From positions 1 to 64,000 of the forward strand of contig NZ_JAEPQA010000022.1 of assembly GCF_017640745.1 (NCBI RefSeq): a stretch of 64,000 bases of DNA, read 5' to 3'. Within the stretch, counting starts at the first letter, position 1, and every line of letters starts with the position of its first letter. The notes below the pieces were generated by a model, which worked only from the letters and a program-made list of their open reading frames with translations, did not search any database and was not told the origin of the DNA. The translations under genes and the position numbers were made by a program. This DNA is from Nisaea sp. Its GTDB lineage: Bacteria > Pseudomonadota > Alphaproteobacteria > Thalassobaculales > Thalassobaculaceae. Below, piece by piece: positions 5,556 to 24,717 of this stretch.

Positions 5556-6326
5556 CTAACGCCGTCCGCGGAACGGCAGGGCGATCAGCGGCAGTGTTTC
5601 CTCGTCGTGCCGTTTTTCCACCCCGATCTTCATCTCCGGCGTGCGCGCTGTCCGGCTGCGGGAACGGAACACAAGATCCCACCAGCTGAAGATCGTCGCG
5701 TAGTTCGAATCCGTGTCCCGGCGGATCGCGTGGTGATGGATCCAGTGGATCGACGGGGTGACGATCACGCGGGAGAGCGCGCTTTCGAGACGCGGTGGCA
5801 GCTTCAGGTTCGAATGGTGGAAGATCGCCGAGAAGAGAACCAGCACTTCAAACAGGATCACCGAGGTGAAGGGAATCCCGAGCAGGATGATCACCGCCGC
5901 CCGGGCCCCGGCACTCAGCAGCACCTCGCCGAAATGAAAGCGCACGGCGGAGGTGACGTCGAGGAACTCGTCGAGATGATGGACCTCGTGGAAGCGCCAG
6001 AGGAACGGGATCTCGTGGTTCAGCCGGTGCCACCAGTAGATCAGCATGTCCAGTAGCAGAATATCGACGAGCAGCCCCGGCCAGCCGGCGAGCCAGTCCG
6101 GCCGCCAGCCGAGCGCGTGGGACGAGGCCCAGAGCGAGACGGGCACCACGATCAGCGGTGAGAGGGCGCCGTTCAGCAGCCAGAGTACGGCGTTGCGCAG
6201 CACCCGGGTCCAGCCGCCCTGGCGCGGCACCGCCGGCGCCAGGCGTTCGGCGGCGAAGAGCAGGGCGATCCATGCAAGGATCAGCAGACCCTTATGCTGG
6301 AGTAGCTGTTGCGTGGAGAGGTCCAT
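5556..6326 (-). CDS. Sterol desaturase / fatty acid hydroxylase family membrane protein
   Basis: A 256-residue integral membrane di-iron enzyme of the fatty acid hydroxylase superfamily. The three histidine boxes expected to bind the metal pair are visible: WHRLNH, HEVHH (in FHEVHHLDE) and HWIHHH. Four or so hydrophobic segments surround them. These proteins hydroxylate or desaturate lipids or sterol-like substrates; the substrate here is unknown. The start at 6326 (MDLSTQQLL) is preferred over an upstream in-frame ATG at 6377 whose extra residues look non-native. It is convergent with lolA, with only one base between the stops. Confidence 0.85.
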   Translation of the reverse strand: MDLSTQQLLQHKGLLILAWIALLFAAERLAPAVPRQGGWTRVLRNAVLWLLNGALSPLIVVPVSLWASSHALGWRPDWLAGWPGLLVDILLLDMLIYWWHRLNHEIPFLWRFHEVHHLDEFLDVTSAVRFHFGEVLLSAGARAAVIILLGIPFTSVILFEVLVLFSAIFHHSNLKLPPRLESALSRVIVTPSIHWIHHHAIRRDTDSNYATIFSWWDLVFRSRSRTARTPEMKIGVEKRHDEETLPLIALPFRGRR

Positions 6327-6421
6327 CTGAGGGAATATGGCAGCGGTTTCGCAGGCCTGCCAGCGGCACGCTGTCACGGCCCCGAGAGCGAGATGTCAGC
6401 CCCTGAGCCGAGGAGCCTTCC

Positions 6422-7210
6422 ATGCTGTCCGTTCCGTCGCTGCCCCTGATCGGTGTCACCGCCTGTCATCAGCAAGGGCAGGATCACTCGGTGCAGCGGG
6501 TTTCCGAGAAATACGTCACCTGCGTTCCGGAGGCGGCCGGCGGTCTTCCGCTCATGATTCCGGCGCTGGAAGCGGGGCAGCTCGATCTCGACAGCCTGGT
6601 CGCCCATCTCGATGGATTGCTCCTTACCGGCAGCCCCTCCAATGTCGAGCCGCATCACTTCAACGGCCCGGCGAGCGTCGAGGGCACCGAACACGATCCG
6701 CGCCGCGACGGCGTCACCCTGCCGCTGATCCGCAAGGCGATCGAGGCCGGCGTTCCGGTGCTCGGCATCTGCCGCGGCATCCAGGAGATGAACGTCGCGC
6801 TCGGCGGCACGCTGCATCAGCGCATCTTCGATTTCGACGACAAGTTCGATCACCGCATGCGCCGTGACGTCGATTTCGACATGAAATACCGGCCCGCGCA
6901 CGAGATCCGCATGACACCGGGCGGCGTGCTCGCCCGCATCGCCGGCAGCGAGACGGCGCTGGTCAACTCGCTCCACGCCCAAGGCATCGACAAGCCGGGC
7001 AAGAATGTCGTGGTCGAGGCGGTGGCGCCGGACGGGATCGTCGAGGCGATCAGCGTCTCGGGCAGCAAGGCCTTCGTCCTCGGCGTGCAGTGGCATCCGG
7101 AATGGCCGCGGCCGATCGCCGGGATCAACCGGAAGATCTTCGAGGCCTTCGGCGAGGCTTGCCGCGCCCATCTGCGTGCCCGCCTCGGTCTGGCCGACGC
7201 CGCCGAATAG
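6422..7210 (+). CDS. Class I glutamine amidotransferase-like hydrolase (peptidase C26)
   Basis: A 262-residue gamma-glutamyl hydrolase of the PuuD type. The nucleophile cysteine lies in the elbow LGICRGIQEMNVALGG, and the catalytic His-x-Glu pair is in VQWHPEW. The family cleaves gamma-glutamyl bonds, for example gamma-glutamyl-GABA in putrescine breakdown. No other putrescine genes are nearby, so the real substrate is open. The start ATG at 6422 is the first of the frame. exonuclease III follows after 39 nt on the same strand. Confidence 0.88.
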   Translation: MLSVPSLPLIGVTACHQQGQDHSVQRVSEKYVTCVPEAAGGLPLMIPALEAGQLDLDSLVAHLDGLLLTGSPSNVEPHHFNGPASVEGTEHDPRRDGVTLPLIRKAIEAGVPVLGICRGIQEMNVALGGTLHQRIFDFDDKFDHRMRRDVDFDMKYRPAHEIRMTPGGVLARIAGSETALVNSLHAQGIDKPGKNVVVEAVAPDGIVEAISVSGSKAFVLGVQWHPEWPRPIAGINRKIFEAFGEACRAHLRARLGLADAAE

Positions 7211-7249
7211 CGTTTTTCCTTTTCCTCCGACCGAGAGAGTTTTCGATCC

Positions 7250-8038
7250 ATGCGGATTGCCACCTGGAACATCAATTCCGTGCGCCTGCGCCTGCCGACC
7301 GTTCTCAGTTTCCTGCAGGACCATGCACCGGACGTGCTCTGTCTCCAGGAGACAAAGACGGAGGACCAGCATTTCCCGGCCGAGGCGCTGGCGGAGGCCG
7401 GCTATGCGCACCAGGCGATCCGCGGCCAGAAGAGCTATAACGGCGTCGCCGTGGTCTCCCGGCTGCCGTTCGAGGAGAGCGACAGCCGCGACTGGTGTGG
7501 CAAGAATGACTGCCGCCATCAGGCGGTCCGCCTCGACGGCGGGATGGAACTGCATAATTTCTACGTGCCCGCCGGCGGCGATGAGCCGGATCCGGCGGTG
7601 AACGACAAATTCGCCCACAAACTCGCCTTCCTCGACGAAATGGTCGAGTGGTTCGGCTCCGCGCGCAGCGGGAAGGATCCCATGGTGCTGGTTGGCGACC
7701 TCAATATCGCGCCGCTCGAGCACGATGTCTGGTCGCACAAGCAGCTCCTGAAGGTCGTCAGCCACACCCCGGTCGAGGTCGAGGCCCTGGCCAAGGTGCA
7801 GGGCGGGCTCGGCTGGGTCGATGCGGTACGCCATTTCGTTCCCGAAACGGAAAAACTCTATTCCTGGTGGAGCTACCGCTCGCGCGACTGGGAAGCGGCC
7901 GACAAGGGCCGCCGTCTGGACCATGTCTGGGTGACCGAGCCGCTGAAGCCCCGGCTGAAATCGGCTGCGGTCGTGAAAGCCATGCGCGGCGGCGAGAAGC
8001 CGTCTGACCACGCGCCGGTGATCGTCGATCTGGGTTGA
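7250..8038 (+). CDS. xth: Exodeoxyribonuclease III
   Basis: A 262-residue AP endonuclease / 3' exonuclease of the EEP superfamily that acts in base excision repair. The family signature blocks are all present: RIATWNINSVRLRL with the metal-ligand Asn, LCLQETKTED with the catalytic Glu, LVGDLNIAP (Asp and Asn of the active site), and the C-terminal SDHAPV with the catalytic Asp-His pair. The protein is cytoplasmic and full length. It probably shares a transcript with the upstream amidotransferase. Repeat copy 2 follows its stop. Confidence 0.93.
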   Translation: MRIATWNINSVRLRLPTVLSFLQDHAPDVLCLQETKTEDQHFPAEALAEAGYAHQAIRGQKSYNGVAVVSRLPFEESDSRDWCGKNDCRHQAVRLDGGMELHNFYVPAGGDEPDPAVNDKFAHKLAFLDEMVEWFGSARSGKDPMVLVGDLNIAPLEHDVWSHKQLLKVVSHTPVEVEALAKVQGGLGWVDAVRHFVPETEKLYSWWSYRSRDWEAADKGRRLDHVWVTEPLKPRLKSAAVVKAMRGGEKPSDHAPVIVDLG

Positions 8039-8052
8039 GGTCCTTCGCTAAT

Positions 8053-8138
8053 CGTCATCCCGGCCGAAGAGCCGGGACCTTGTCGAACGAATAGCGTCAA
8101 CCGGCCGCCTGAGGTCCCGGATCAAGTCCGGGATGACG
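8053..8138. repeat. Dispersed palindromic repeat, copy 2
   Basis: Same family as 4758-4844. The ends CGTCATCCCGG (8053-8063) and CCGGGATGACG (8128-8138) are identical to copy 1 and exactly complementary, with inner arms GGGACCT and AGGTCCC; the centre differs. It lies between the convergent xth and the DUF457 gene, where it may serve as a bidirectional terminator. Confidence 0.85.
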
Positions 8139-8155
8139 CTCCTTTTCTTGGAGAA

Positions 8156-9241
8156 TTAGCCGCAAGTCGGCGCGTCGGGAAGCGCGGCCAGTGCGGTTGT
8201 CCCCGGCTCGAAAAGGCTCGCGGCCTCGGCCGGACGCACCGCGTTATCGCCGAACATCGCACCGACCAGCCATTCCACATCCCCTTCGGCGGAGCGCGGC
8301 GCGCGTACCCGCTCGGGATGGATCTCCTTCCAGGCTTCCCCGTCCGGGGCCGCAACGCGGAAATCAAACACGAAGCTCGGTGTCACGCCCATGCGGAGGT
8401 CGGCGATCCTGAGGCCTTCTTCGTCCTTCAGGGTCCGATAATAGCCCTTGGAGAAGGCCGCGACCGTCGCAGCGGGCAGCAGAGTATCGAGGCACGGACC
8501 GCCCGGCTCGAGGCGCGGATGTGCGTGGATTCGTGCGCTGTCCGCGTCGCCGAAGACCGACTGGTAGATGTTGTAATAGACCGGCCCGTCCACCGCGATT
8601 GTGCGCCAGAGCAGGGTGTTGAACGGCATCGGGGTCGCCAGAACCCGCTCCGCTGAAAGACCCGCCGCCGCCATCGCCGCTCGCGCTTTGCCGTCGGCGA
8701 TCTGCTGCGCCACAAGAGACCAGCCGAGATAGAGCGTCGAGAGCGCCAGGGCCCCGGTCGTGACCCGTTTGAGCCGCGTGCTCCATTCCGGCACCGCCAG
8801 GGCCCAGAGCGTCGCCGCGAGCAGCGGAAGGGTATAGAGCGGATCGATGATGAAGACGGACCCGACCCCGAAGGGCGTGTCGACCAGCGGCCAGAGCAGG
8901 CGCGTGCCGTAGACCGTCATGGCATCGAGCAGGGCATGCGTCGTCAGGCAGAGGAAGACCGTCAGATAGGCTGTCACGCGCTCCTGCCTCAGGCCCCTGA
9001 AAAGCCGCATCGCGCCCTCACCGATAAGAGGCGTAAGGGCGGCATGGACCAGCAGGGAATGGCTCCAGCCCCGGTGCAGCACGAAGTCGCTGACCGGATC
9101 GCCGTGTTTGTAGAGCACGTCGAGATCGGGAAGCGTGCCGAGAACGGCACCGGCGAGCGCCGCCTTTCGCGGTCCGATCTTCGGTCCGGCGACGGCAACG
9201 GCGACGGTGGCGCCGAGGACGGCCTGGGTCAGTGAATCCAA
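8156..9241 (-). CDS. Metal-dependent membrane hydrolase, YdjM/DUF457 family
   Basis: A 361-residue inner-membrane protein. Its start, MDSLTQAVLGATVAVA, the segment LGTLPDLDVLY and the motif HRGWSHSLL are typical of the YdjM/YbcI family of predicted membrane-bound, metal-dependent hydrolases (conserved Asp and His residues on the membrane face). A run of hydrophobic helices fills the first 200 residues; the C-terminal half is soluble. Function in this family is poorly known. It is the last gene of the minus-strand arm of the glycoconjugate locus, 67 nt after the methyltransferase start, so co-transcription is possible but not certain. Confidence 0.8.
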   Translation of the reverse strand: MDSLTQAVLGATVAVAVAGPKIGPRKAALAGAVLGTLPDLDVLYKHGDPVSDFVLHRGWSHSLLVHAALTPLIGEGAMRLFRGLRQERVTAYLTVFLCLTTHALLDAMTVYGTRLLWPLVDTPFGVGSVFIIDPLYTLPLLAATLWALAVPEWSTRLKRVTTGALALSTLYLGWSLVAQQIADGKARAAMAAAGLSAERVLATPMPFNTLLWRTIAVDGPVYYNIYQSVFGDADSARIHAHPRLEPGGPCLDTLLPAATVAAFSKGYYRTLKDEEGLRIADLRMGVTPSFVFDFRVAAPDGEAWKEIHPERVRAPRSAEGDVEWLVGAMFGDNAVRPAEAASLFEPGTTALAALPDAPTCG

Positions 9242-9308: not shown

Positions 9309-9803
9309 TCAGGTGGCGGCGATCCGGTAGAGATGGATCCGTCCGGGGCTGATCCCGTCGGGAAGCGGGGCATCCTTCCAGCGCGGCAGCTCGACCGGCT
9401 GGTCGCTCACCACGACCGCGCCGTCCGCCAGGAGGGCGTCGACCAGAGGCGCGATCTCGGCCGCGAGTGCGATGCTCGTCTGTTTCTCTCCGGTGCCGAT
9501 GTCGAGATGCGCCAGGAGGACGGTCGGACCAAGCTGGTCACGCGCCTGCACAAGGGTTTCGCGGAAATCGCCGAGAAAGATCCGGTCCTTCGCCGGGATG
9601 CAATCCGGATGCGCGGCAACCTGTCTGTCGAACACGTAGAACGGCCGGTCCGGCATGAGGGAGCGCAGGTGATCGAAGGTGCGGCCATTGCCGAGCCCAA
9701 GTTCTATTGCGTTTCCGGAACGGTCGCCGATGGCGGAGACGGCCCATTCCAGACTCAGCTTCTGCGCCTGGAGGCGGCGGATGGCGCTGTCGAGACGGCT
9801 CAC
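9309..9803 (-). CDS. Small class I SAM-dependent methyltransferase-like protein
   Basis: A 164-residue protein with a Rossmann-like methyltransferase core. The glycine-rich motif I is seen as AIELGLGNGRTFDHL (about residues 32-46), followed by the acidic end of strand 2 in FYVFDRQ. Later strands read LLAHLDIGTG and AVVVSD. It is short for the superfamily, so it may use a partner or act on a small substrate. It sits 9 nt behind the cyclic-nucleotide-binding gene in an apparent operon with the ABC exporter, which suggests methylation of the exported glycoconjugate or its precursor. That role is an inference from position only. Confidence 0.65.
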   Translation of the reverse strand: MSRLDSAIRRLQAQKLSLEWAVSAIGDRSGNAIELGLGNGRTFDHLRSLMPDRPFYVFDRQVAAHPDCIPAKDRIFLGDFRETLVQARDQLGPTVLLAHLDIGTGEKQTSIALAAEIAPLVDALLADGAVVVSDQPVELPRWKDAPLPDGISPGRIHLYRIAAT

Positions 9804-9812
9804 GGTCCGGGT

Positions 9813-10268
9813 TTACCCGTCCTTGTCGGAAAGCGCGGCACGCAGGCGCATATTGGTCTGCTCCAGGCGCGCGGCCAGTTCGCGCATGATCTCGACCGCG
9901 ATCTGAGGGAAGTCGGTGACGAGGCGGAAGAAGGCCTCCTTGGCGATCTTCAGCGTCGTCAGCGATTGCTTTGCCTGGACCGTTGCGGTCCGGGGCACGT
10001 CGCAGAGAATGGCGATCTCGCCGACGATGTCGCCCTTGCTGAGCTGTGCCACTTCAATCTTGCCGTCGTCGGTATCGATCAGGACGGAGGCCGTACCGTC
10101 GATGATGATATAGGCGGCGTCGCCGGAATCGCCCTGATTGAACAGGACCTGACCGTCCGCGTAGTTCAGCCGCTCGGAGGTGAAGGCAAGCAGCTTCAGC
10201 TTCGACGGCTCGATCTTGGCGAAGATCGGAATGTTTTTCAGCAGCTCGACTTCTTCGTTCAGGCTCAT
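9813..10268 (-). CDS. Stand-alone cyclic-nucleotide-binding domain protein
   Basis: A 151-residue single-domain protein of the Crp/Fnr cNMP-binding fold. The beta roll spans about residues 10-115, and the phosphate-binding cassette is intact: GDIVGEIAIL followed by PRTATVQ, with the Glu and Arg that bind the cyclic nucleotide. There is no DNA-binding helix-turn-helix; the C-terminus is a long amphipathic helix (about 118-145). It therefore looks like a cyclic nucleotide sensor that works by protein contact. It lies 30 nt downstream of the degenerate ABC exporter gene and 9 nt upstream of the methyltransferase, so the ABC protein is a plausible partner. Confidence 0.85.
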   Translation of the reverse strand: MSLNEEVELLKNIPIFAKIEPSKLKLLAFTSERLNYADGQVLFNQGDSGDAAYIIIDGTASVLIDTDDGKIEVAQLSKGDIVGEIAILCDVPRTATVQAKQSLTTLKIAKEAFFRLVTDFPQIAVEIMRELAARLEQTNMRLRAALSDKDG

Positions 10269-10298
10269 GGGTGCAATCCTCGGGTTTCGGGCGCTGTC

Positions 10299-12935
10299 CT
10301 ATTCCTCATTCAGCAGTCCCCGGAACATCGTGCCTTCCTGGTTCAGACTATCAAACGTGCCGTCTTCGATCACGCGTCCGCCGGACATAACAAGAATCCT
10401 GTTGAACGGCTGGGCGAGACGCGCGCGGTGGGCGATGAATATGACTGTTCGGCCTTCCGCTTCGGCGCAGATCCTGGACAGGATCGGGGCCTGCAGGCCG
10501 GAATCGAGCACGGCAATTGCTTCGTTCAGGACGATCACATCCGGGCGCCGCAGCAGGATACGCGCGATCGCGACCTTCTGACGCTGCGCCGCCGTCAGCC
10601 GGGATCCAGCGATGCCGGCTTCCGCATCGAGGCCGACCTCGATCACGATGGCCCTGAGGCCTTCGGATTCGACGACCTCGGCAACCACCTTGCCGACCTG
10701 ATTACCGGCATCCGCCTGACCGTAGGCGATCTTGCCGAAAAGAATATTGTCCTGCACCGAGGCGGCAAGGTTGAAGCGGTCGACCGAGAAGAACTCGAGC
10801 GCCGCCTGCCTCTCGGCGGGCAGCTCCTCCCGGAACACCTTCCGGGCTTCGAGGATACGGGCCTGCAGCTCCTCCGAGATCATTCCGAGGCGGTGGCGTG
10901 CCGGGATCAGCTTGAACGGCAATTCGAGGAAACGGGTCTTGTCCTCGGCTTCCATCCCGTCGAGGCCGACCCGGTCCGCGCGCTGCAGCAGGGTCTGGAA
11001 CTCCGGCAGGTCGTCGGCGGAGATGAAGGAATACTGCGCGAAGAACTCGTGATCCGGCGGCAGGTCCTTGAACAGCTCGACCATCGTCGCCGCGACGTCG
11101 CGGCCGATATGCACGAAATCCCCGGTGAGACCGACCTTGTCGAGCACGGAGCGGACATAGGGGTCGGAGGCGAGGTGGTCGAGTGCGAAATCGTCGCCGA
11201 CGGGGGTTCCGAACAGGAGGTTTTCCGCCACGCTGGCATTGGTGTTGAATTTTTCGGCGTCGAAAGGCTCGACCAGGCCGGCGAGGCCGAGTTCCTCCAG
11301 CCGCGCGCGCAGACGGACCCGCGCGCCGAGAATCCGGTTGGCGATCTCCGCTTCGCTTTCGGCCCGGAGCGAGCCGCGCAATCCGATGGCGTAAACCTCG
11401 TCCTCCAGCCCGACCACTTTCAGCAGTTCGGCGATCCGGTCCTTCAGGCCGTTCTCGTCTGCGCCGATGGACTGGTAGTCGATCCAGTTGGCGGAAATCG
11501 GATCCAGGGAATTGCCGGAGGCCTCCGCGTCGGCGCGCTGCTCCGGGGAATCCGGAAAGACGCTCGGGTCCGGTTCACCGAAGGGGAGGTGACGCGCTCC
11601 CATCAGAATATTGTCGCGGATCGTGCTGGAGAACACGAAAGCGCCGGGCCCGACATATCCGATGCGCCTTCCGGTGACGGATTCCGGCAACGGGGCGATA
11701 TCCACGCCGTTGATTGTCACGCTGCCCGAGGTCGGCAGCACAAGCCGGGCGATGACTGTCGCCAGCAGATCCTTGCCGCCGCCGCCGGGGCCGGCGATCG
11801 CGACATGCTCGCCTTGCGCGATCTCGAAGGAAACGCCCTCGAGCAGGACCTCGCCTTCATCGTCGGTCAGGCCGACATTTCTGAGCGCCACGGGTCCGTT
11901 GAAAGAAACCGGCGTTTCCGGCTCGTCCAGCTGCTGTGCCTCGGTCAGGCTTCCGGCGGGATCGAACTGTTCGACCACCTGATCGTACTTGATCCGGGAA
12001 TCTTCCTTGCGCTGGTAGTAGGTCAGCAGCTCCTTCCAGGGTGCCGAGAGATCCTTGTAGGCCGCGAGGATGGCGACCAGTGCACCGAAGGTGAGGTCGC
12101 CCTTGATCACCAGGACGCCGCCGATCGAATAGAAGAAGAACGGTGTCAGCTGGGCGATGAAATTGTTGAGGAACTTGATGAAGAACTTGCGGCGGTAGAT
12201 CTCGAACCGGATCGTGTAGATCTCGCCCAGCATGGTGGTGAAATTCGCCAGCGCGAAGCGGGAGGAATCGTTCGCGTGGATTTCCTGGACGCCGGAAATG
12301 CTCTCCCCGATCCGGTCCGAAAGCTTGCGGACGGTCCTGACCCGTTCCTTGCCGAGCTCGTTCACCCGCTTCTGCAGCCTTGGAATGAGATAGGCCTGCA
12401 CCGGATAGAGGGCGATCGCGGCGGTTCCGAGGATCGGATCCTGCACGAACATGAAGATGAGGATGGTCAGCAGGGTCCCGCCCTGGAACGCGGGCAGCGA
12501 GAACGCATCTCCGATGAAACCGCCGAGCGGCTCCACCTCCGAGGTGATCATCGGGATCACCTCGCCCTGGCTGACACGGCGGAAATGCGGCAGCGGGAAG
12601 CGCAGCACACGGGCATAGAGATCGTAGCGCAGCCGCCGCAGCATCCGTTCGCCGAGCTGGCCGCGATAAACGTTGATGTAGTATTTGAACCCGCCATTGA
12701 TGCAGACGAGCGCGAGGAAAATGCCGCTCAGCAGCATCAGATAGGGGATCTGGTCGATCTGATAGCCGAAGATGTCCTGCGGAAGGTTCTTGCCGGCGAT
12801 TGCCTGGTTGATGATGGTTTTCGGCAGGTCGAGCGAATAGTAAAGGAACGGAAAGGACAGGCCGGTCAGCACGAGGAGAAAGATCTGTTCTTTCTTGCTG
12901 TGCCGGAAAATGAACCGGAAAATCGTGGGTTCCAT
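10299..12935 (-). CDS. ABC exporter-like protein with degenerate, insert-containing ATPase domain
   Basis: An 878-residue fusion of an exporter-type membrane domain (about residues 10-300, five to six helices) and an ATPase domain (345-875) about 300 residues longer than normal. Key motifs are altered: Walker A reads GPGGGGKD (382-389), with Asp in place of Ser/Thr; the Q-loop region reads YVGPGAFVF, without Gln; the signature is LTAAQ (780-784); Walker B ends LNE (803-805), with Asn for Asp. H836 of the switch is kept. The extra sequence lies between the Q-loop and signature and repeats the after-Q-loop motif: STIRDNILMG (437-446), ASVAENLLFG (567-576), ASVQDNILFG (725-734). The start at 12935 (MEPTIFRF) is chosen over upstream codons, which encode an atypical leader. 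It heads an operon with the cNMP-binding protein and methyltransferase and is divergent from the glycosyltransferase operon. Confidence 0.85.
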   Translation of the reverse strand: MEPTIFRFIFRHSKKEQIFLLVLTGLSFPFLYYSLDLPKTIINQAIAGKNLPQDIFGYQIDQIPYLMLLSGIFLALVCINGGFKYYINVYRGQLGERMLRRLRYDLYARVLRFPLPHFRRVSQGEVIPMITSEVEPLGGFIGDAFSLPAFQGGTLLTILIFMFVQDPILGTAAIALYPVQAYLIPRLQKRVNELGKERVRTVRKLSDRIGESISGVQEIHANDSSRFALANFTTMLGEIYTIRFEIYRRKFFIKFLNNFIAQLTPFFFYSIGGVLVIKGDLTFGALVAILAAYKDLSAPWKELLTYYQRKEDSRIKYDQVVEQFDPAGSLTEAQQLDEPETPVSFNGPVALRNVGLTDDEGEVLLEGVSFEIAQGEHVAIAGPGGGGKDLLATVIARLVLPTSGSVTINGVDIAPLPESVTGRRIGYVGPGAFVFSSTIRDNILMGARHLPFGEPDPSVFPDSPEQRADAEASGNSLDPISANWIDYQSIGADENGLKDRIAELLKVVGLEDEVYAIGLRGSLRAESEAEIANRILGARVRLRARLEELGLAGLVEPFDAEKFNTNASVAENLLFGTPVGDDFALDHLASDPYVRSVLDKVGLTGDFVHIGRDVAATMVELFKDLPPDHEFFAQYSFISADDLPEFQTLLQRADRVGLDGMEAEDKTRFLELPFKLIPARHRLGMISEELQARILEARKVFREELPAERQAALEFFSVDRFNLAASVQDNILFGKIAYGQADAGNQVGKVVAEVVESEGLRAIVIEVGLDAEAGIAGSRLTAAQRQKVAIARILLRRPDVIVLNEAIAVLDSGLQAPILSRICAEAEGRTVIFIAHRARLAQPFNRILVMSGGRVIEDGTFDSLNQEGTMFRGLLNEE

Positions 12936-13160
12936 GCGGAGGGTCAGCCCGTACCGAGTGGCGAGGTTGGCAAAAACCGTTTTCTGACAGAACAGTAACC
13001 GAAGGATACCGCAAGGTAAATGTGCCGCGGGCCAAACTGGTTTTGCCGCACCGTGCGCTGTGGCATAGTGCACTCCTAAGGGGATATGGTGGGGGTCGAA
13101 CCTGCGGGTTCAGCAGGGCTTTCCATTCAATTCAAGGCCGATAACAACGTGGACGGGCGT

Positions 13161-14390
13161 ATGACGTACGCTAGCAACAAGCGCGGCCAGAAGCGTGTCC
13201 TGATGTACAGTCACGACACGATGGGGCTCGGCCACTTGCGCCGTTGCCGGGCGATCGCGCATTCGCTCGTCGAGCAGCAGTCGGATCTGACGGTCCTGAT
13301 CCTGTCCGGCTCGCCGATCATCGGAAGCTTCGATTTCCGCACGCGGGTGGATTTCGTTCGGATCCCTGGCGTGATCAAGCTGCGTAACGGCGACTACACC
13401 TCGCTCAACCTGCATCTCGACATCGAGGAGACGCTCAACCTCCGCTCCTCGATCATCAAGCACACGGCGGATGCCTTCGACCCTGACCTGTTCATCGTCG
13501 ACAAGGAGCCCTGGGGCCTGCGCGGCGAGGTGCGTCCGACGCTGGAGATGCTGAAGGACCGCGGCACGCCGCTCGTGCTCGGCCTGCGCGACGTCATGGA
13601 CGAGCCGGAAAAGCTGTTGCCCGAATGGGAGCGCAAGAACGCGGTCGAGGCCCTTCGCGACGTCTATGACGAGATCTGGGTCTACGGCCTGCAGTCGGTC
13701 TGCGATCCCTATTCCGGCATGCCGATGCCGCAGTCGGTCCATGCCAAGACGCACTATACGGGGTACCTGAAGCGCAAGGTCCCAAGCCACACCCACCCGA
13801 TCTCGACGACCGATCTCGAGGATCCGTTCATTCTGGTAACGGCCGGTGGCGGCGGCGACGGCGACGGGCTCATGGACTGGGTCCTGAAGGCCTACGAGTC
13901 CGACAATCATCTGCCTTACAGGGCCCTGCTGGTGCTCGGCCCGTTCATGCCGGCGGAGCTGCAGAACGATTTCATGGAGCGCGCTGCCGAACTCGACCGC
14001 GTCGAGGCGATCACCTTCGACGCGCGGATCGAGAGCATGATGGCCCGCGCCGCCGGGATCGTGGCGATGGGCGGCTACAATACCTTCTGCGAGATCCTTT
14101 CCTTCGACAAACGCGGCCTTATCGTGCCCCGGACCGAGCCGAGGCTGGAGCAGTTTATCCGTGCGTCGCGGGCCGAGGAACTGGGCATGACGGCGATGCT
14201 GGTCGACGACGGCAGCCGCGAGCCCGAGGTCATGGCGGATGCGCTCCGCCGTCTGCCGAGCCAGCCGCGTCCCTCGGAAATCATGGCGGCGTCCCTGCTG
14301 GACGGCCTTGACGAAGTAAACCGTCTCACCCATCGATGGCTCTACGAGCGTCCCGGGTCCAACATCTCGGTGCTCCGCCGCGAGGCGTGA
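13161..14390 (+). CDS. MurG-like glycosyltransferase, first gene of glycoconjugate operon
   Basis: A protein of about 409 residues with GT-B architecture. The N-terminal domain starts with a strand and the glycine-rich turn HDTMGLGHLRRCRA (GxGHxxR), as in MurG-type enzymes. The C-terminal domain carries VTAGGGGDGDG and the donor-binding segment GYNTFCEILSFDKRGLIVPR, comparable to the GGxTxxE region of family 28. Such enzymes transfer a sugar from a nucleotide-sugar to a lipid or glycan acceptor at the inner membrane face. The start is uncertain: ATG 13161 precedes the conserved strand, and an in-frame ATG lies at 13086 with AAGGGG just two bases before it. It is divergent from the ABC exporter gene and 36 nt ahead of the next glycosyltransferase. 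Confidence 0.82.
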   Translation: MTYASNKRGQKRVLMYSHDTMGLGHLRRCRAIAHSLVEQQSDLTVLILSGSPIIGSFDFRTRVDFVRIPGVIKLRNGDYTSLNLHLDIEETLNLRSSIIKHTADAFDPDLFIVDKEPWGLRGEVRPTLEMLKDRGTPLVLGLRDVMDEPEKLLPEWERKNAVEALRDVYDEIWVYGLQSVCDPYSGMPMPQSVHAKTHYTGYLKRKVPSHTHPISTTDLEDPFILVTAGGGGDGDGLMDWVLKAYESDNHLPYRALLVLGPFMPAELQNDFMERAAELDRVEAITFDARIESMMARAAGIVAMGGYNTFCEILSFDKRGLIVPRTEPRLEQFIRASRAEELGMTAMLVDDGSREPEVMADALRRLPSQPRPSEIMAASLLDGLDEVNRLTHRWLYERPGSNISVLRREA

Positions 14391-14426: not shown

Positions 14427-15704
14427 ATGCGAGACGGTATGACAGAGCCAGCTTCCAGCGTTCCGACGGCAATCGTGCTGAAAGGCTATCCGCGTCTGTC
14501 GGAAACCTTCATCGCACAGGAAATCCTCGAACTTCAGCGGCGCGGGCTGGATTACACGATCGTTTCCCTGCGCCACCCGACCGACAAGGCCACGCATCCC
14601 GTGCACGGGCAGATCGCCTCCGCGGTCAACTACCTGCCGGAATATCTTTACCAGGCGCCGCTCCGGGTTCTCAAAGCCTGGTGGAAGGTCCGGCGGATGC
14701 CCGGTTACAAGGCGGTCTTCCGCCTCTGGCTGAAGGATCTCCGGCGCGATCCCACACCCAACCGGGGGCGCCGTTTCGGTCAGGCAATGGTCTTGGCGGC
14801 AGAGCTCGATCCGCACTACCGGCACATCTACGCGCATTTCCTCCACACGCCTTCCTCGGTCGCGCGCTACGCCGCGCTGATGACCGGGCGCAGCTGGTCG
14901 GCCTCCGCGCACGCTAAGGACATCTGGCTCAGCCCGGAATGGGAGAAACGGGAGAAGCTTCAGGATGCCGCCTGGGCGGTGACCTGCACGCGCTACGGCC
15001 ACCAGCATCTCGACGCCCTCGTGCCGGGCCGGACCCGGCTGGTCTATCACGGTCTCGATCTTTCGAGTTTTGCGCCGGTCGGCCCGAAGCCGCCCGGCGG
15101 AGACGGATCGGCGGCGCCGGTGCAACTGCTCTCCGTTGGCCGCGCGGTGCCGAAAAAGGGCTTCGACCGGCTGCTGGACGCGCTCGCGCGCCTGCCGGAG
15201 GGACTGTCCTGGCACTGGACCCATATCGGCGGCGGCAAGGAGCTGAAGGCGCTGAGGGACCAGGCCGCGCGTCTCGGGATCGCCGGACGTGTCACCTGGC
15301 GCGGTGCGGCGGCGCAGAGCGCGGTGATCGAGGCCTATCGCGCATCCGATCTCTTCATCCTGCCGAGCCGGGTGGCCGAGGACGGCGACCGGGACGGCCT
15401 GCCGAATGTACTCATGGAAGCGCAGAGCCAGCGCCTCTGCTGTCTCGCGACCGCCGTTGCGGCCATTCCCGAACTGATCGAGAGCGGTGTGACCGGCGAG
15501 CTTGTTCCGCCGGACGATTGCGCGGCACTGACGGCGGCGCTTGAGGGGCTGATCGGGGACCCCGAACGGAGGGCACGGCTCGCGGCTGCCGGGGAAGAGC
15601 GTGTGCGGAGCCGGTTCGACCATCATTCCGCAATCTCCGTTCTCGCCGGGCTGCTCGGCCTCGATGCGGCAAAATCCGAACCCGGGACGGACGCTGCAGC
15701 GTGA
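14427..15704 (+). CDS. Family 4-type glycosyltransferase
   Basis: A 425-residue GT-B retaining glycosyltransferase. The N-terminus has LKGYPRLSETFI, typical of GT4 enzymes of exopolysaccharide loci (the SETF motif), followed by an acceptor domain. The C-terminal nucleotide-sugar domain shows LLSVGRAVPKKGFDRLLDALARL, the strand HIGGGKELKAL, ASDLFILPS and the donor-binding Glu in GLPNVLMEAQ. A second possible start is ATG 14439. Its stop codon overlaps the GTG start of the next gene by four bases, so the two are translationally coupled. Sugar and linkage cannot be told from sequence. Confidence 0.88.
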   Translation: MRDGMTEPASSVPTAIVLKGYPRLSETFIAQEILELQRRGLDYTIVSLRHPTDKATHPVHGQIASAVNYLPEYLYQAPLRVLKAWWKVRRMPGYKAVFRLWLKDLRRDPTPNRGRRFGQAMVLAAELDPHYRHIYAHFLHTPSSVARYAALMTGRSWSASAHAKDIWLSPEWEKREKLQDAAWAVTCTRYGHQHLDALVPGRTRLVYHGLDLSSFAPVGPKPPGGDGSAAPVQLLSVGRAVPKKGFDRLLDALARLPEGLSWHWTHIGGGKELKALRDQAARLGIAGRVTWRGAAAQSAVIEAYRASDLFILPSRVAEDGDRDGLPNVLMEAQSQRLCCLATAVAAIPELIESGVTGELVPPDDCAALTAALEGLIGDPERRARLAAAGEERVRSRFDHHSAISVLAGLLGLDAAKSEPGTDAAA

Positions 15705-16843
15705 GAATTGCTTTCTACGCCCCCTTGAAGGCCCCTGACGCGCCGACTCCTTCCGGCGACCGGCGCATGGCGCGCCTGCTGATGGCCGCGCTCCGGGCGG
15801 GCGGGCACGAGGTGTTCCTCGCCTCGCGCCTGCGCAGCCGCGACGGCGAGGGCGATCCCGCCCGTCAGGGACGCATCGCATCTTGTGGAGCGCGTTACGC
15901 CGAACGCTTCGTCGCTTGTTGTGAAAGCGGAAGGATCGCGGCGCCGGATCTCTGGTTCACCTATCACCTCTATTACAAGGCGCCGGACCATATCGGTCCC
16001 CGCGTGGCGGAACGGCTCGGCATTCCCTATGTCGCCGCCGAGGCCTCGAACGCGCCGAAACGGGCCGAGGGCCCCTGGGCGGCGTCCCACCGGCGGGTGG
16101 TCGACGCGCTTGGCCGCGCGGATCTCGTCGTCGGATTCAACAGCCGGGACAAGGCCTGTCTCCTGCCGGTCCTGAAGCCCGGGAGCACTTATCTCGACCT
16201 GAAGCCCTTCGTCGACGGGCTGCCCTATCCGGAGCGGCGGGCCGCGTCCGTGCTTCGCTCCGAACTCGGGGTCGGGAACGGGATCCCCGTGCTTCTGGCG
16301 GTGGGCATGATGCGTCCCGGGGTGAAAATCGCCTCCTACAGGCTCCTTGCCGAGGCTTTGTCCGCGCTTCCCCCGGCGCGTCGCTGGACACTCGCGATCG
16401 CGGGAGACGGTCCGGCTCGAGCCGAGGTCGAGCAGGCATTCAAAGCGCATGGCGACCGCGTGCGGTTCCTTGGCGCGGTCGGGCCCGAGCGGCTGATGGA
16501 GCTCTATCTCGGCGCAGACATTCTGGCATGGCCGGCGATCAACGAAGCCTACGGAATGGCCCTGCTGGAGGCGCAGGCAGCTGGGCTGCCTGTGGTTGCG
16601 GGCGATACCGGCGGCGTTCCGGACATCGTGGCGGACGGTGAGACGGGCCTGCTTTCCCCCGAAGGCGACGTGGCAGGGTTCGCCGCCAATCTCGACCGCC
16701 TGCTTGAAGACCCGGGGCTGGTCCGATGCATGGGAGAGGCGGCCCGAACCAAGGCAAACCGGCTCCATAGTCTCGAAGCCGCCGCGGTCCGCCTGGATGC
16801 GGCGCTCGGCGACCTTCTGCGGCCCGAAAGGATGCGGCCGTGA
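15701..16843 (+). CDS. Family 4-type glycosyltransferase
   Basis: A 380-residue GT-B enzyme starting with GTG at 15701, inside the upstream stop codon (GTGA overlap). The N-terminus, RIAFYAPLKAPDAPTPSGD, is the usual first strand and loop of GT4 proteins. The donor domain has PVLLAVGMMRPGVK, AIAGDGPARAEVE, ADILAWPAINEAYGMALLEAQAAG (the ExxGxxxxE-like donor loop) and GGVPDIVADGETGLL. It is cytoplasmic or peripheral to the membrane. It is followed by another 4-nt overlap with the phosphatase gene. Family assignment is firm; substrate unknown. Confidence 0.9.
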   Translation: MRIAFYAPLKAPDAPTPSGDRRMARLLMAALRAGGHEVFLASRLRSRDGEGDPARQGRIASCGARYAERFVACCESGRIAAPDLWFTYHLYYKAPDHIGPRVAERLGIPYVAAEASNAPKRAEGPWAASHRRVVDALGRADLVVGFNSRDKACLLPVLKPGSTYLDLKPFVDGLPYPERRAASVLRSELGVGNGIPVLLAVGMMRPGVKIASYRLLAEALSALPPARRWTLAIAGDGPARAEVEQAFKAHGDRVRFLGAVGPERLMELYLGADILAWPAINEAYGMALLEAQAAGLPVVAGDTGGVPDIVADGETGLLSPEGDVAGFAANLDRLLEDPGLVRCMGEAARTKANRLHSLEAAAVRLDAALGDLLRPERMRP

Positions 16844-17433
16844 GGATCGGGTTCCTGCGCCATGGCCCGACGGCATGGAACGCGGAAAAGCGTCTCCAGG
16901 GCCATACCGACATCCCGCTCTCCGAAGCAGGTCGAGTGATGGCCGCGGGATATAGCCTTCCGGAAGCGTTTCGCGGTGTTCCCGCCTTCGTCTCGCCGCT
17001 CGAGAGGGCGCGCGAAACGGCTGAACTCGCGGGGATTGAGAACGCGACCGTGGATCCTCTGCTCATAGAGATGAACTGGGGGGACTGGGAAGGTGAACGG
17101 CTTCCCGACCTGCGCAAACGTTACGGAAAAGAAATGGAAACGAACGAGGCACGTGGCCTCGACTTCCGCCCCGCCGGTGGAGAGAGCCCGCGCGAGGTTC
17201 AGGCCCGGCTGCAAACCGTCTTCGCACGGCTGAACGACCTGAGGCCACGGCCGGAGCGTTGCCTTCTGGTGACCCATAAGGGGGTGATCCGAGCGGCGCT
17301 CGCACTGGCTTTCTGCTGGGACATGACCGGAAAACCGCCGGTCCGGCTTGACTGGTCGGCGCTCCATGTGGTCCGTCTCGACGCCGATGGGACGCTTGAG
17401 CCCGATGCCATGAATGTGAGCCTGCTTCCATGA
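16840..17433 (+). CDS. Histidine phosphatase family protein (phosphoglycerate-mutase-like)
   Basis: A 197-residue branch-1 histidine phosphatase. The catalytic phospho-histidine lies in the RHG motif of GFLRHGPTAWN at the N-terminus; the second histidine is in LLVTHKGVIRA; the conserved Arg and Glu are in SPLERARETAE and EMNWGDWEG. Members remove phosphate from small phosphorylated metabolites. It starts with GTG at 16840, overlapping the upstream stop by four bases, and ends overlapping the next ATG by four bases. Being locked inside a glycosyltransferase operon, it may dephosphorylate a sugar- or polyol-phosphate precursor; this is inferred. Confidence 0.9.
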   Translation: MRIGFLRHGPTAWNAEKRLQGHTDIPLSEAGRVMAAGYSLPEAFRGVPAFVSPLERARETAELAGIENATVDPLLIEMNWGDWEGERLPDLRKRYGKEMETNEARGLDFRPAGGESPREVQARLQTVFARLNDLRPRPERCLLVTHKGVIRAALALAFCWDMTGKPPVRLDWSALHVVRLDADGTLEPDAMNVSLLP

Positions 17434-18590
17434 CGGATCCCCGGTCGAATTCGCTCTTCCTCTATGTCCAGAACCTGCTCGGGATCGGGCATCTGCGCCG
17501 CGCGGCGGCGGTCGCCCAGGCTGCCGCGGCGGCGGGTTTCGAAGTGCATTTCGTCTCCGGCGGCATGCCGGTGCCGCATCTCGATATCGGCGCGGCGAAG
17601 CTGCATCAGCTGCCGCCGGTCAGGGCGGCGGACACGCTCTTCAAGGTGCTCGAGGACGAGAACGGGCGGCAGATCGACGACGCCTGGAAGGCGGAGCGCC
17701 GCGACCGGCTGCTCGCACTGTTCGAGGAGATCCGCCCGTCGATCCTCTTCACCGAGCTGTTTCCCTTCGGCCGCCGGCAGATGCGCTTCGAATTGCTGCC
17801 GCTTCTGGACCTTGCGAAGGAGGCGTCCTGGAAACCGAAGATCGTCTCCTCGATGCGGGACATCCTGGTCACCAAGCCCCGGCCCGACAGGAACCGGGAA
17901 ATCGTCGAGACCGTCGACCGGTACTACGATCTGGTTCTCGTGCATGGCGACGAGGGCGTCATCAGCCTGGCCGACACCTTTCCGATGTATGACGAGCTGA
18001 CGCCGCCTGTGCGCTATACCGGCTATGTGCTGAACCCGATCGATACCGGCAACGGGAAGGGCGACGGCGAGGGCGAGATCGTGGTTTCCGCTGGCGGCGG
18101 TGCCGTCGGCGGCAGCTTTATGGCCGAACTGGCGCGCCTCCGCCCGGACCTGCCGTTCGCCGACCGCACCTGGCGCTTCGTCACCGGCCCGCACATGCCG
18201 GAGGAGGCCGCGCGGGAGATCGAAAGCCATGCCGGCCCGGGCGTCATCGTGGAACGGAGCCGCCCGGATCTCGCCGCGCTCATTGCGCGTGCGTATCTTT
18301 CGATTTCCCAGGCCGGCTACAACACGCTCGCCGAGATCCTGACCGCCGGGACCGCCTCCGTCGTGATTCCGTTCGAGGGCGGTGTCGAGACCGAGCAGCG
18401 TGTCCGTGCCGATCTCCTCGCCCGGCGCGGCCGCCTTGCGGTCGTTCCGGAGGAGGCGTTGTCCCTCGACACGCTATGCACCGCCATGCATACGGCCGTA
18501 GCGGCTCGGGACAACAGCATTGCGGGCGTCGACCTCGACGGCGCGGCCGGAACCGCCCGGATGCTGACCGAACTGCTGGAGCAGGCATGA
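17430..18590 (+). CDS. MurG-like glycosyltransferase (second in the operon)
   Basis: A 386-residue GT-B protein related in layout to the first gene of this operon. The N-terminal turn is NLLGIGHLRRAAAVAQ (GxGHxxR); the middle contains VSSMRDILVTKP and a central VSAGGGAVGG strand; the donor side has SQAGYNTLAEILTAGTASVVIPF and the nearby ETEQRVRADLL. These match the family 28 C-terminal domain, which binds a UDP-sugar. It probably adds a sugar to a membrane-linked acceptor. The ATG overlaps the upstream stop (ATGA) and the gene ends in a further ATGA overlap with the deacetylase-like gene. Confidence 0.84.
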   Translation: MTDPRSNSLFLYVQNLLGIGHLRRAAAVAQAAAAAGFEVHFVSGGMPVPHLDIGAAKLHQLPPVRAADTLFKVLEDENGRQIDDAWKAERRDRLLALFEEIRPSILFTELFPFGRRQMRFELLPLLDLAKEASWKPKIVSSMRDILVTKPRPDRNREIVETVDRYYDLVLVHGDEGVISLADTFPMYDELTPPVRYTGYVLNPIDTGNGKGDGEGEIVVSAGGGAVGGSFMAELARLRPDLPFADRTWRFVTGPHMPEEAAREIESHAGPGVIVERSRPDLAALIARAYLSISQAGYNTLAEILTAGTASVVIPFEGGVETEQRVRADLLARRGRLAVVPEEALSLDTLCTAMHTAVAARDNSIAGVDLDGAAGTARMLTELLEQA

Positions 18591-19360
18591 GCGAAAGCGC
18601 CGCATCGCCGGACGAGCTCAGGCGGGCGCTCGACGCTTCGGCGCAGGCCGGCCGGCCTTTGGATTTCTGGTGGCGGGATGACGATCTGCAGCGGCCGGAT
18701 GCGGAGCTTGAGCCGTTGCTCGCTCTCGCCGGGTCGACCGGCTGGGTTCCGGGCCTCGCGGTCGTGCCGGACGGTATGGATACGGAGGGGCTCAAGGCAC
18801 GGCTGGCGGGGACCGACGCCGAACTGCTCGTCCACGGTTTTGCCCACCGGAACCACGCGGGTGCCGGAGAGAAGAAATGCGAGTTCCCGGGGACCCGGCC
18901 GATGGACGGCATGTGCCGGGACGCCGCCGAAGGCTTTCGCCGCCTGAATGCCGCTTTCGGGCGCGCCTGTCTGCCCTGTTTCGTTCCGCCATGGAATCGA
19001 ATTGCACCTGAGCTGATCGCCGAGCTGACGGCCTGCGGTTTCACGTCCCTCTCGACTTTCGGTCCGCGCCGCGCGGCGGAGCCAGCCCCGGGGTTGAAAT
19101 GTGTGAACACGCATATTGACGTCATCGACTGGCGTGGTACCCGTCGCTTTGTCGGCATCGGGGCGGCGCGGGCGGCGATCATACGCCATCTCGCGGCGGT
19201 CCGGGCTGGCGCGGCGCAGGCGGAGGAGCCGTGCGGACTCCTGACCCATCATCTGATAATGGTGGAGCAGGACTGGCGCGAACTCGGTACTCTTGCGGCG
19301 GAACTGGATGCCCATGAAGCGGTTCGCCTCTGTGCGCCAAGCGACTGTTTTTGCTCATGA
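18587..19360 (+). CDS. Polysaccharide-deacetylase-like protein
   Basis: A 257-residue protein of the NodB/polysaccharide deacetylase fold. The N-terminal strand ends in WWRDDDLQRP, which supplies the metal-binding Asp pair, and the second metal motif appears as LLVHGFAHRNHAG (H-x3-H). A later segment PCFVPPWNRIAPE resembles the arginine-containing motif 3 (RxPY-like), and LLTHHLIM supplies a C-terminal His. No signal peptide is seen, so it may act in the cytoplasm on a lipid-linked or nucleotide-linked sugar, or be a divergent relative. The ATG at 18587 is fixed by the ATGA overlap with the upstream gene. Confidence 0.78.
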   Translation: MSESAASPDELRRALDASAQAGRPLDFWWRDDDLQRPDAELEPLLALAGSTGWVPGLAVVPDGMDTEGLKARLAGTDAELLVHGFAHRNHAGAGEKKCEFPGTRPMDGMCRDAAEGFRRLNAAFGRACLPCFVPPWNRIAPELIAELTACGFTSLSTFGPRRAAEPAPGLKCVNTHIDVIDWRGTRRFVGIGAARAAIIRHLAAVRAGAAQAEEPCGLLTHHLIMVEQDWRELGTLAAELDAHEAVRLCAPSDCFCS

Positions 19361-23706: not shown

Positions 23707-23718
23707 GGGAGAGAAGAC

Positions 23719-24717
23719 GTGCTGACCTACCTGATCCGCCGCATCCTGATCATGATCCCGACGCTGATCGCCATCAGCATCATCACCTTCGTCATCATCC
23801 AGCTCCCGCCCGGCGATTATCTGACCACGATGATCAACGAGATGCAGAGCCAGGGCGAGAATGTCGACCAGTCGAAGATCGAGGCGCTCCGGGCGCAGTA
23901 CGGTCTCGACCGGCCGATGTACGAGCAGTATTTCCTCTGGGCGACCGGGCTGCTCCGGGGCGACTACGGCTATTCCTTCGAGTACCAGCTTCCGGTGGCG
24001 GACGTGGTCGGGGACCGGGTGTTCCTGACCTTCGTGCTCAATTTCGCGACCATCCTTTTCATCTGGGCGGTCGCCTTCCCGATCGGCATCTATTCCGCCT
24101 GCAACCAGTACAGCCTCACCGATTACGGCCTGACCTTCGTCGGTTTCATCGGTCTGGCGACGCCAAACTTCCTGCTCGCGCTGATCCTGCTCTATCTCGC
24201 CAATATCTGGTTCGGCACCTCGATCGGCGGGCTGATGGATCCGCAATATCTCGACCAGCCCTGGAGCATGGCCAAGGCGCTGTCGGTGCTTGAGCATCTC
24301 TGGGTCCCGGTCGTCGTCATCGGCACCTCGGGCACCGCGGCGATGATCCGGCGGCTGCGTGCCAACCTGCTGGACGAGCTGCAGAAACAGTATGTGATCA
24401 CCGCCCGCGCCAAGGGCCTGCCGCCGTTCCGCGCGCTGATGAAATATCCGCTCCGGATGTCGCTGAACCCCTTCATTGCCGATATCGGCAACATGCTGCC
24501 GCAGGTCATCTCCGGCTCCGCCGTGGTCTCCATGGTGCTGTCGCTGCCGACCACCGGGCCGATGCTGATCGGCGCACTGCAGAGCCAGGACATGTATCTC
24601 GCGGGCTCCTTCCTGATGTTCCTCGCGCTGCTCACGGTGATCGGGATGTTCGTCTCCGACCTGCTGCTTGCGCTGCTCGATCCGCGGATCCGGCTCGGCG
24701 GGGGGGCCAATCGATGA
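23719..24717 (+). CDS. ABC importer permease, DppB/OppB type
   Basis: A 332-residue inner-membrane permease. The N-terminus LIRRILIMIPTLIAISIITF is the canonical first helix of DppB-like proteins; the EAA-loop region reads IRRLRANLLDELQKQYVITARAKGLP in two halves around the coupling helix, and the LPTTGPMLIGAL stretch follows. It starts with GTG at 23719, preceded by GGGGAGAG. Its end overlaps the next permease by four bases (ATGA). It pairs with the downstream DppC-like protein to form the channel. Confidence 0.93.
   Translation: MLTYLIRRILIMIPTLIAISIITFVIIQLPPGDYLTTMINEMQSQGENVDQSKIEALRAQYGLDRPMYEQYFLWATGLLRGDYGYSFEYQLPVADVVGDRVFLTFVLNFATILFIWAVAFPIGIYSACNQYSLTDYGLTFVGFIGLATPNFLLALILLYLANIWFGTSIGGLMDPQYLDQPWSMAKALSVLEHLWVPVVVIGTSGTAAMIRRLRANLLDELQKQYVITARAKGLPPFRALMKYPLRMSLNPFIADIGNMLPQVISGSAVVSMVLSLPTTGPMLIGALQSQDMYLAGSFLMFLALLTVIGMFVSDLLLALLDPRIRLGGGANR

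Follow-up and report, generated by a model that had tools for sequence, protein, structure and literature searches.

The window analysed here is a 64,000-nucleotide stretch of the genome of Nisaea sp. (contig NZ_JAEPQA010000022.1, positions 1 to 64,000), and its minus strand encodes at 10299..12935 an ATP-binding cassette (ABC) exporter-like protein of 878 amino acids, in which a membrane domain is followed by a degenerate nucleotide-binding domain (NBD) carrying a large insert. By descent and fold the protein is a type IV ABC exporter. The altered ATP site, the insert, its internal repeats and an unusual conservation pattern are shared by a family, the gene order around it is conserved, its gene is linked phyletically to a glycosyltransferase gene, and a partner protein encoded beside it keeps an intact cyclic-nucleotide-type ligand cassette. 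The data point, with a probability that we put at about 45%, to an ATPase-impaired, mostly alphaproteobacterial branch of type IV exporters that would act as a glycan or glycolipid flippase or exporter switched by a cyclic-nucleotide-type signal.

Replacement of ATP-contacting residues

A first-pass annotation of the gene had described degenerate ATPase motifs, and alignment agrees with it at every position it named. Walker A ends in KD (GPGGGGKD, residues 382-389, 11769..11792, minus strand like all features of this gene), the Q-loop position holds Pro430 in place of Gln, the signature reads LTAAQ (residues 780-784, 10584..10598), Walker B (VIVLNE, residues 800-805, 10521..10538) ends in Asn804-Glu805 with Asn for the essential Asp, and the H-switch is retained as His836 (10428..10430). 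The NBD core alignment adds a change beyond these, acidic Asp358 in place of Tyr at the A-loop position (11862..11864). Of seven canonical features the window protein keeps three (Lys, Glu and His), and it does not show the motif set of an ATP-driven ABC transporter.

The same alterations run through the family, represented by 82 full-length frames (above 450 bits, near full coverage) that reduce to 73 distinct proteins, the window protein included. As controls served 27 exporters of the same and related genomes, picked by a pattern demanding GK[ST], so that their Walker A values hold by construction. The A-loop Tyr present in 27/27 controls is acidic in 68/73 family proteins (Asp in 38, Glu in 30). 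The SGG of the signature, found in 24/27 controls, occurs in 0/73, and the Walker B Asp (27/27 controls) is kept in 7/73 and mostly exchanged for Asn (48). Walker A Ser/Thr remains in 12/73 against a by-construction 27/27, with Asp in its place in 28 and Glu in 26, while the Walker A Lys is kept in 44/73, again against 27/27 by construction. Three further residues are present in all 27 controls and in part of the family, namely the Q-loop Gln (22/73), the catalytic Glu (45/73) and the H-loop His (36/73); the D-loop Asp and the signature Gln are each retained in 69/73. Counted over the seven features, family proteins keep 0-5 and controls 6 or 7. The lost residues serve contacts with adenine, Mg and the signature. 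As far as sequences can tell, the family-wide change looks like shared replacement, not random decay, and it argues against normal ATP binding, short of excluding it.

A conserved insert with repeated motifs

Between the Q-loop motif and the signature lies a segment of residues 449-772 (10620..11591) that is about 295 residues longer than expected, since the 239 NBD residues of 3vx4 are spread over 534 residues of the model; the first-pass estimate of some 300 extra residues was close. In this VIA-align comparison 239/239 residues of 3vx4_A (the ComA NBD) were superimposed at 1.6 Å with Z 30.5 over model range 343-876, and we take the 295 modelled residues unmatched to the ComA NBD to be the insert. 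Comparison with ABCB1 (7zk4) gave 312 query residues against 18 in that chain. The insert segment is present in 73/73 family proteins, where it measures 300-399 residues.

The threefold occurrence of a motif xSVxxNILFG had also been noticed before and is evident in the sequence. Its first copy, STIRDNILMG (residues 437-446, 11598..11627), stands at the normal position after the Q-loop, and two others follow as ASVAENLLFG (residues 567-576, 11208..11237) and ASVQDNILFG (residues 725-734, 10734..10763). Both the Asn and the Gly of the motif are retained in 63/73, 72/73 and 73/73 family proteins for copies 1, 2 and 3. Family profiles of the three segments match each other in hhalign, with E-values, each counting one comparison, of 7.9e-6 (1-2), 1.2e-6 (1-3) and 1.3e-12 (2-3), and for each of the three pairs 0/50 column-shuffled controls reached the real score. 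The helix preceding repeat 2 likewise matches the helix preceding repeat 3 (E 5.3e-7, 0/30 shuffles as good); neither of these helices gave a sequence match to the signature helix, where 5 and 7 of 30 shuffles did equally well.

Structure prediction bears on whether these repeats are folded units. The AlphaFold2 model of the full protein (mean predicted local distance difference test score, pLDDT, 83.9; predicted template modelling score, pTM, 0.78) has low-confidence stretches at 161-177 and 291-297, both in the membrane domain. In it the NBD fold appears complete and of exporter type, with VIA-align Z of about 30 also against 2hyd, 3qf4 and 5mkk. The insert folded alone was predicted with pLDDT 90.1 and pTM 0.81. 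For the insert alone Foldseek gave no match at E up to 0.001 (best E 0.55), and a search of the PDB with the insert profile returned a single chain, 7qkr, at E 0.28 only. VIA-align reached Z up to 5.8 for the insert alone, a range in which, by the tool's own note (Z < 8), a match can reflect a common arrangement; ABC-exporter-type NBDs made up 44 of its best 50 rows, with insert positions of about 112-255 matched. The matched segment is presumably, by MsbA numbering, the stretch from Q-loop to signature. We read the corresponding residues 561-704 (10824..11255) as an extra, degenerate second helical subdomain, which the modest Z of the model supports but does not prove. The earlier proposal that the helical subdomain has been partly multiplied is thus favoured by the profile comparison of the segments and by the insert model, with the structural Z remaining modest.

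Family spread and selection

A pattern scan of GTDB genomes yielded 42 loci with relatives. Profile matches (E up to 1e-60) were found in 132/385 alphaproteobacterial genomes, and in a phylum-wide draw in 32/398 genomes, 31/32 of them within Alphaproteobacteria; partial, NBD-less and contig-cut matches are part of both figures. A search of plasmids returned 339 records, in 262 of which one region spans at least 80% of the query; 144 were from Rhizobium and 80 from Sinorhizobium, and members also occur on Azospirillum plasmids. Plasmid-borne members carry generic ABC transporter names where annotation is visible, and among the literature matches listed there was no publication on this transporter family.

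The altered motifs and the insert are shared across the 73 distinct proteins, which marks them as traits of a conserved family. Relatives with canonical motifs and no insert, the finding that would have made the window copy a simple case of decay, do not appear among them: the best keep 5/7 features and all have the insert, a result with some circularity, since a high score to a profile that includes the insert was what selected the 73. Canonical exporters without the insert exist as more distant relatives. Two further frames match in other ways. One of 863 amino acids, marking a branch (L078:5434-8022) matches in NBD and insert only, its membrane domain scoring 27.2 bits against the PF00664 cut-off of 28, and another (L154:2-1420), beside a YddA-type gene, scores 104.7 bits to the family profile.

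Ratios of nonsynonymous to synonymous substitution rates (dN/dS) against Nisaea relatives lie at 0.06-0.07 in the membrane domain and at 0.10-0.19 in NBD plus insert; between two Nisaea copies they are 0.04 and 0.10-0.13. Purifying selection acts on all parts of the protein. That the gene is a decaying pseudogene, as several altered catalytic motifs in the window copy might suggest, is hardly conceivable: its frame is open, its dN/dS against Nisaea relatives is about 0.12, similar motif loss is seen family-wide, the insert is universal in the family, and matches exist in 132/385 genomes. We therefore rejected decay of the window copy.

The distribution of constraint is the reverse of that in ordinary exporters. 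Identity across six genomes ranges from 66 to 89% in the membrane domain and from 41 to 77% in the NBD core, with the membrane domain higher in 6/6, while two control exporters follow the opposite trend, the NBD lying above the membrane domain in 11/12 comparisons. Mean pairwise identity in the family is 0.58 for the membrane domain, 0.64 for loop 1, 0.52 for loop 2, and 0.41 and 0.42 for the two NBD halves.

These results bear on the possibility of a slow but real ATP-driven exporter, in which the ATP pocket is merely unusual and the insert and the cyclic-nucleotide-type partner are add-on regulators. Persistence of the Walker A Lys (44), Walker B Glu (45), His (36) and D-loop Asp (69 of 73) speaks for such a pump, as does purifying selection on the NBD; degenerate sites elsewhere join ATP-driven cycles (PMC7756269). 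Adenine, Mg and signature contacts are nevertheless lost, most members having acidic residues at two such positions, a homodimer would have two degenerate sites, and conservation is lower in the NBD core than in the membrane domain. We regard a slow pump as unlikely.

A cyclic-nucleotide-type partner with an intact cassette

Next to the exporter-like gene, at 9813..10268 on the minus strand, lies a gene for a protein of 151 amino acids with a cyclic-nucleotide-binding domain (PF00027, E 1.5e-20) and the cassette GEIAILCDVPRTATV. A protein of this type is adjacent or fused in 72/79 distinct family proteins, the window included. The domain is fused in 8/79, Pfam confirming the fusions in loci L013, L020, L023, L024, L028, L079, L082 and L103, and among the remaining 71 a same-strand neighbouring gene encodes it in 64 cases. 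Three more loci (L047, L080 and L084) have a match outside the distance, strand or score rule and were not counted. In three frames ABC, cyclic-nucleotide-binding and GGDEF domains are joined (L020:5974-9570, L024:140-3775 and L028:5917-9504), GGDEF scoring above its cut-off in L020 and L024 and below it in L028.

Among 71 distinct partner domains (those above 60 bits to the cyclic-nucleotide-type protein of the window, weaker ones being dropped) the Gly and the Arg of the cassette are retained in all 71, the Glu and the Thr/Ser in 70 each. Since this cassette is retained and the ATP-contacting residues of the ABC protein are replaced, the ligand site of the partner has been kept while the ATP site of its neighbour has been lost.

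Relatives that lack the NBD

Six partial matches to the family are open frames ending 6-25 residues past the membrane domain (L073, L074, L075, L076, L146 and L101); L145 is a seventh such NBD-less cousin, and L077 is cut by a contig end. The seven score 141-384 bits against the family profile. One of them, L101:1414-2484, is a distant paralogue from another contig of the genome to which the window belongs (C4:114253-115134). Coupling loop 2 measures 33-44 residues in six NBD-less cousins and 46 in 88/88 full-length frames. Its shortening where the NBD is missing suggests that loop 2 is kept in full-length proteins because their NBD is still in use.

Four of the cousins, L145:7773-9077, L146:6785-7984, L073:7543-8817 and L074:5868-7091, carry an additional hydrophobic stretch at the N-terminus. 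On plasmids of Phaeobacter and Thalassospira, L145 and L146 are surrounded by copper genes. L073 neighbours a multicopper oxidase and a copper chaperone, and next to L074 are genes for a MerR regulator and for cation efflux; no NBD was found among ten scanned neighbours of L073 and L074. Tests with Pfam and phmmer found no membership of these proteins in SbmA/BacA: they give no phmmer match (E up to 1) to an SbmA/YddA set, and with PF05992 L074 reaches 14.6 bits against a cut-off of 24, the other five scanned cousins not being listed at all. The genome of the window carries a separate PF05992 gene.

In a tree, full-length and NBD-less rows stand apart from canonical exporters (100/99), with long-branch warnings; the NBD-less label needs two changes on it, and its rows include no SbmA. 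It is compatible with one or with two losses of the NBD, and with either direction of the change. No publication treating NBD-less copper-linked proteins was among the literature matches listed.

A linked glycan locus

Divergent from the exporter-like gene runs a plus-strand cluster with genes for four glycosyltransferases, a histidine phosphatase and a protein related to an annotated polysaccharide deacetylase. It comprises a glycosyltransferase at 13086..14390 (PF04101), two of group 1 at 14427..15704 and 15701..16843 (both by Pfam and synteny), the histidine phosphatase at 16840..17433 (PF00300, E 1.4e-40, synteny), a glycosyltransferase 28-like protein at 17430..18590 (PF04101, E 1.4e-9, synteny), and at 18476..19360 a relative (39% over 218 amino acids, E 3e-42) of a Mesorhizobium protein (locus L104) annotated in the polysaccharide deacetylase family; neither of these last two relatives has a Pfam match at E up to 0.01.

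The glycosyltransferase at 13086 is the phyletic partner of the exporter-like gene. Among 385 genomes both occur in 125, the ABC gene only in 7, the glycosyltransferase only in 2 and neither in 251 (glycosyltransferase at E up to 1e-40; ABC by its profile in the same 385 genomes). The two can lie far apart, about 350 kb in genome G131 and 40 kb in G040. A rough, hand-counted control with PF05992, which includes longer YddA-type frames (SbmA/BacA), found that family in 15/58 genomes, and an ABC match in 7/15 of those against 17/58 overall.

So close a linkage would also suit a non-transporter, a membrane scaffold or receptor positioning the glycosyltransferases and passing a cyclic-nucleotide-type signal on to them, and the loss of ATP residues, the sensor partner and the GGDEF fusions agree with it. 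We consider it quite unlikely, given that the whole membrane domain is well conserved (mean pairwise identity 0.58) and that no other exporter-type gene to move the product was found in the 78 family loci.

Downstream of the partner gene is one for an S-adenosylmethionine methyltransferase (Methyltransf_17, PF12692, E 2.4e-50) at 9309..9803, minus strand, matched in 50/89 loci. Past the glycan cluster, at 19901-25886, the window encodes an oligopeptide-type ABC importer (a double ATPase, a substrate-binding protein of 674 amino acids and two permeases), and importer genes also adjoin relatives in Rhizobium etli p42e and Azospirillum lipoferum. The Mesorhizobium locus (L104:1-18712) has two cyclase genes, a DUF3095 gene and a metallo-beta-lactamase-fold gene around the ABC and cyclic-nucleotide-type genes, together with a nucleotide sugar dehydrogenase and four glycosyltransferase genes.

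Search for a second exporter

With whole control exporters as queries, no other frame with an exporter membrane part was found in 78 family loci, the flanks of which are often short; the same queries did recover every one of the 89 family frames, and the membrane part in 88. An adjacent exporter with a complementary canonical site, as a heterodimer would have, was not found in these 78 loci, and a distant partner gene is possible. Degenerate sites are known in heterodimeric exporters (PMC7756269), and the genome of the window has other exporters, so the protein might be one half of a heterodimer whose canonical partner is encoded elsewhere. Apart from the missing partner gene, this is made very improbable by the loss of Walker and signature residues in the same chain, which would spoil both sites. 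Tandem degenerate ABC genes occur in one locus of an Oceanospirillaceae metagenome-assembled genome (L038:2231-4855 and 5965-8586, with no cyclic-nucleotide-type match), possibly forming a heterodimer.

Domain layout and reading frame of the exporter-like gene

PF00664 (ABC_membrane, E 4e-23) spans residues 49-291 with 82.9 bits against a curated cut-off of 28, within a membrane domain of residues 1-330 (11946..12935) that by regional identity is more conserved than the NBD. ABC_tran (PF00005) matches as two separated stretches; the N-terminal NBD half, residues 345-448 (11592..11903), is delimited by this match and the predicted model. ABC_membrane and ABC_tran are the only Pfam domains listed at E up to 1, PF05992 (SbmA_BacA) not being among them. 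NCBIfam gave 174 models at E up to 0.01, of which the 25 best (MsbA, HepA and others) are far under their cut-offs and none names the protein.

The ATG lies at 12935 and relatives align from there; an earlier GTG start is listed that would give 924 amino acids. On the opposite, plus strand the gene is covered by a long antisense open frame of 1221 codons (9333-12998), which also runs antisense to the cyclic-nucleotide-type and methyltransferase genes and is likely a shadow of G+C-rich coding sequence.

A possible mechanism and its weight

The mechanism that we infer from this anatomy is as follows. The protein would be a homodimer of ABC-exporter shape, whose NBDs keep their shape and their contact with the coupling loops and would hardly respond to ATP. 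The enlarged helical part, with its two further repeat-related segments, may offer a surface for the cyclic-nucleotide-type partner. This partner, adjacent or fused, would set the conformation through the NBD, ATP hydrolysis by the protein itself not being the driver, and the membrane domain would let a glycan or glycolipid that the linked glycosyltransferases produce cross, in a movement that may be downhill or gradient-driven.

Several observations weigh against the flippase or exporter switched by a cyclic-nucleotide-type signal. The NBD is itself under purifying selection, and the catalytic Glu, Walker A Lys, His, D-loop Asp and signature Gln persist in the proportions given above; two members hold 5/7 features, leaving room for ATP binding or slow hydrolysis. 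Cyclic-nucleotide-type matches are missing from loci L029, L032 and L038 (two ABC copies), and from L039 and L095, both incomplete loci. Flanks are often short, both being under 2 kb in 29/79 cases and both at least 4.5 kb in 35/79. Cyclase-like genes occur in only 8/89 loci, duplicates among them, with two in the Mesorhizobium locus. The co-occurrence with the glycosyltransferase is uncorrected for relatedness, and its Fisher value overstates significance. The ligand is a further point. E. coli CRP has Ser at the Thr/Ser position of the cassette, yet binds cyclic AMP. Thr there favours cyclic GMP in PKG (PMC3080414), and the domain of HetC can bind guanosine tetraphosphate (ppGpp) in vitro (PMC10986499). 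The position therefore names no ligand, given what CRP and HetC bind, and by analogy the partner may bind something other than a cyclic nucleotide. Finally, degenerate sites in other exporters still hold ATP (PMC7756269).

A bolder form of the proposal can be stated, which we consider somewhat unlikely. In it the ATP switch would have been exchanged for a cyclic-nucleotide-type switch, with an ATP-blind NBD lever, enlarged by multiplied helical subdomains and governed by the adjacent or fused partner, gating a path for glycan or glycolipid that ATP does not drive; the membrane domain would also persist in the NBD-less copper-linked proteins, as a separate case of the course taken by SbmA. The first-pass suggestion of a regulated gate, floppase or scaffold fits the loss of ATP residues, the reversed conservation and the cyclic-nucleotide-type partner; these findings do not separate its three options.

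If the proposal is true, the family would show a primary pump becoming something else, its motor retained as a regulatory part, and it might represent a stage between ABC exporters and secondary transporters that lack an NBD, such as SbmA. The family is widespread and generically annotated, yet tied to a glycan locus, and it allows a direct test of whether an NBD can function without ATP.

Comparison with known systems

With the type IV exporters MsbA, Sav1866 and TM287/288 the window protein shares the PF00664 membrane domain and, in the model, a complete NBD fold. It differs from them in the replaced ATP contacts of its family, in a helical subdomain larger by about 295 residues and in a membrane domain more conserved than the NBD.

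CFTR and SUR are examples of an ATP-gated channel or regulator. Altered Walker B, signature and H-loop are found in TAP, CFTR and Pdr5 too (PMC7756269). In those proteins, however, one site is canonical, whereas in the present family every chain is degenerate and the 78 loci searched yielded no partner exporter.

HetC of Nostoc is an ABC exporter whose cyclic-nucleotide-binding-type domain is required in vivo (PMC10986499). The likeness lies in a domain of this type encoded with an exporter (72/79 here), and the two may act together. HetC, on the other hand, has a peptidase domain, an N-terminal sensor domain and an essential ATPase residue, while in the present family the domain forms a protein of its own or a C-terminal part, and the ATPase is degenerate; a C39 peptidase of the HetC type is lacking in the window protein, which shows only ABC_membrane and ABC_tran.

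The SbmA/BacA proteins (SLiPTs) provide an ABC-type membrane domain working without ATP, and SbmA is proposed to have lost the NBD and coupling helices and to have an added TM0 segment (PMC13316013). The NBD-less cousins described here resemble them in having no NBD, a shortened loop 2 and, in four of them, an extra N-terminal segment. The window protein, in contrast, retains its NBD and full-length coupling loops, and for this reason it stands outside the SLiPTs.

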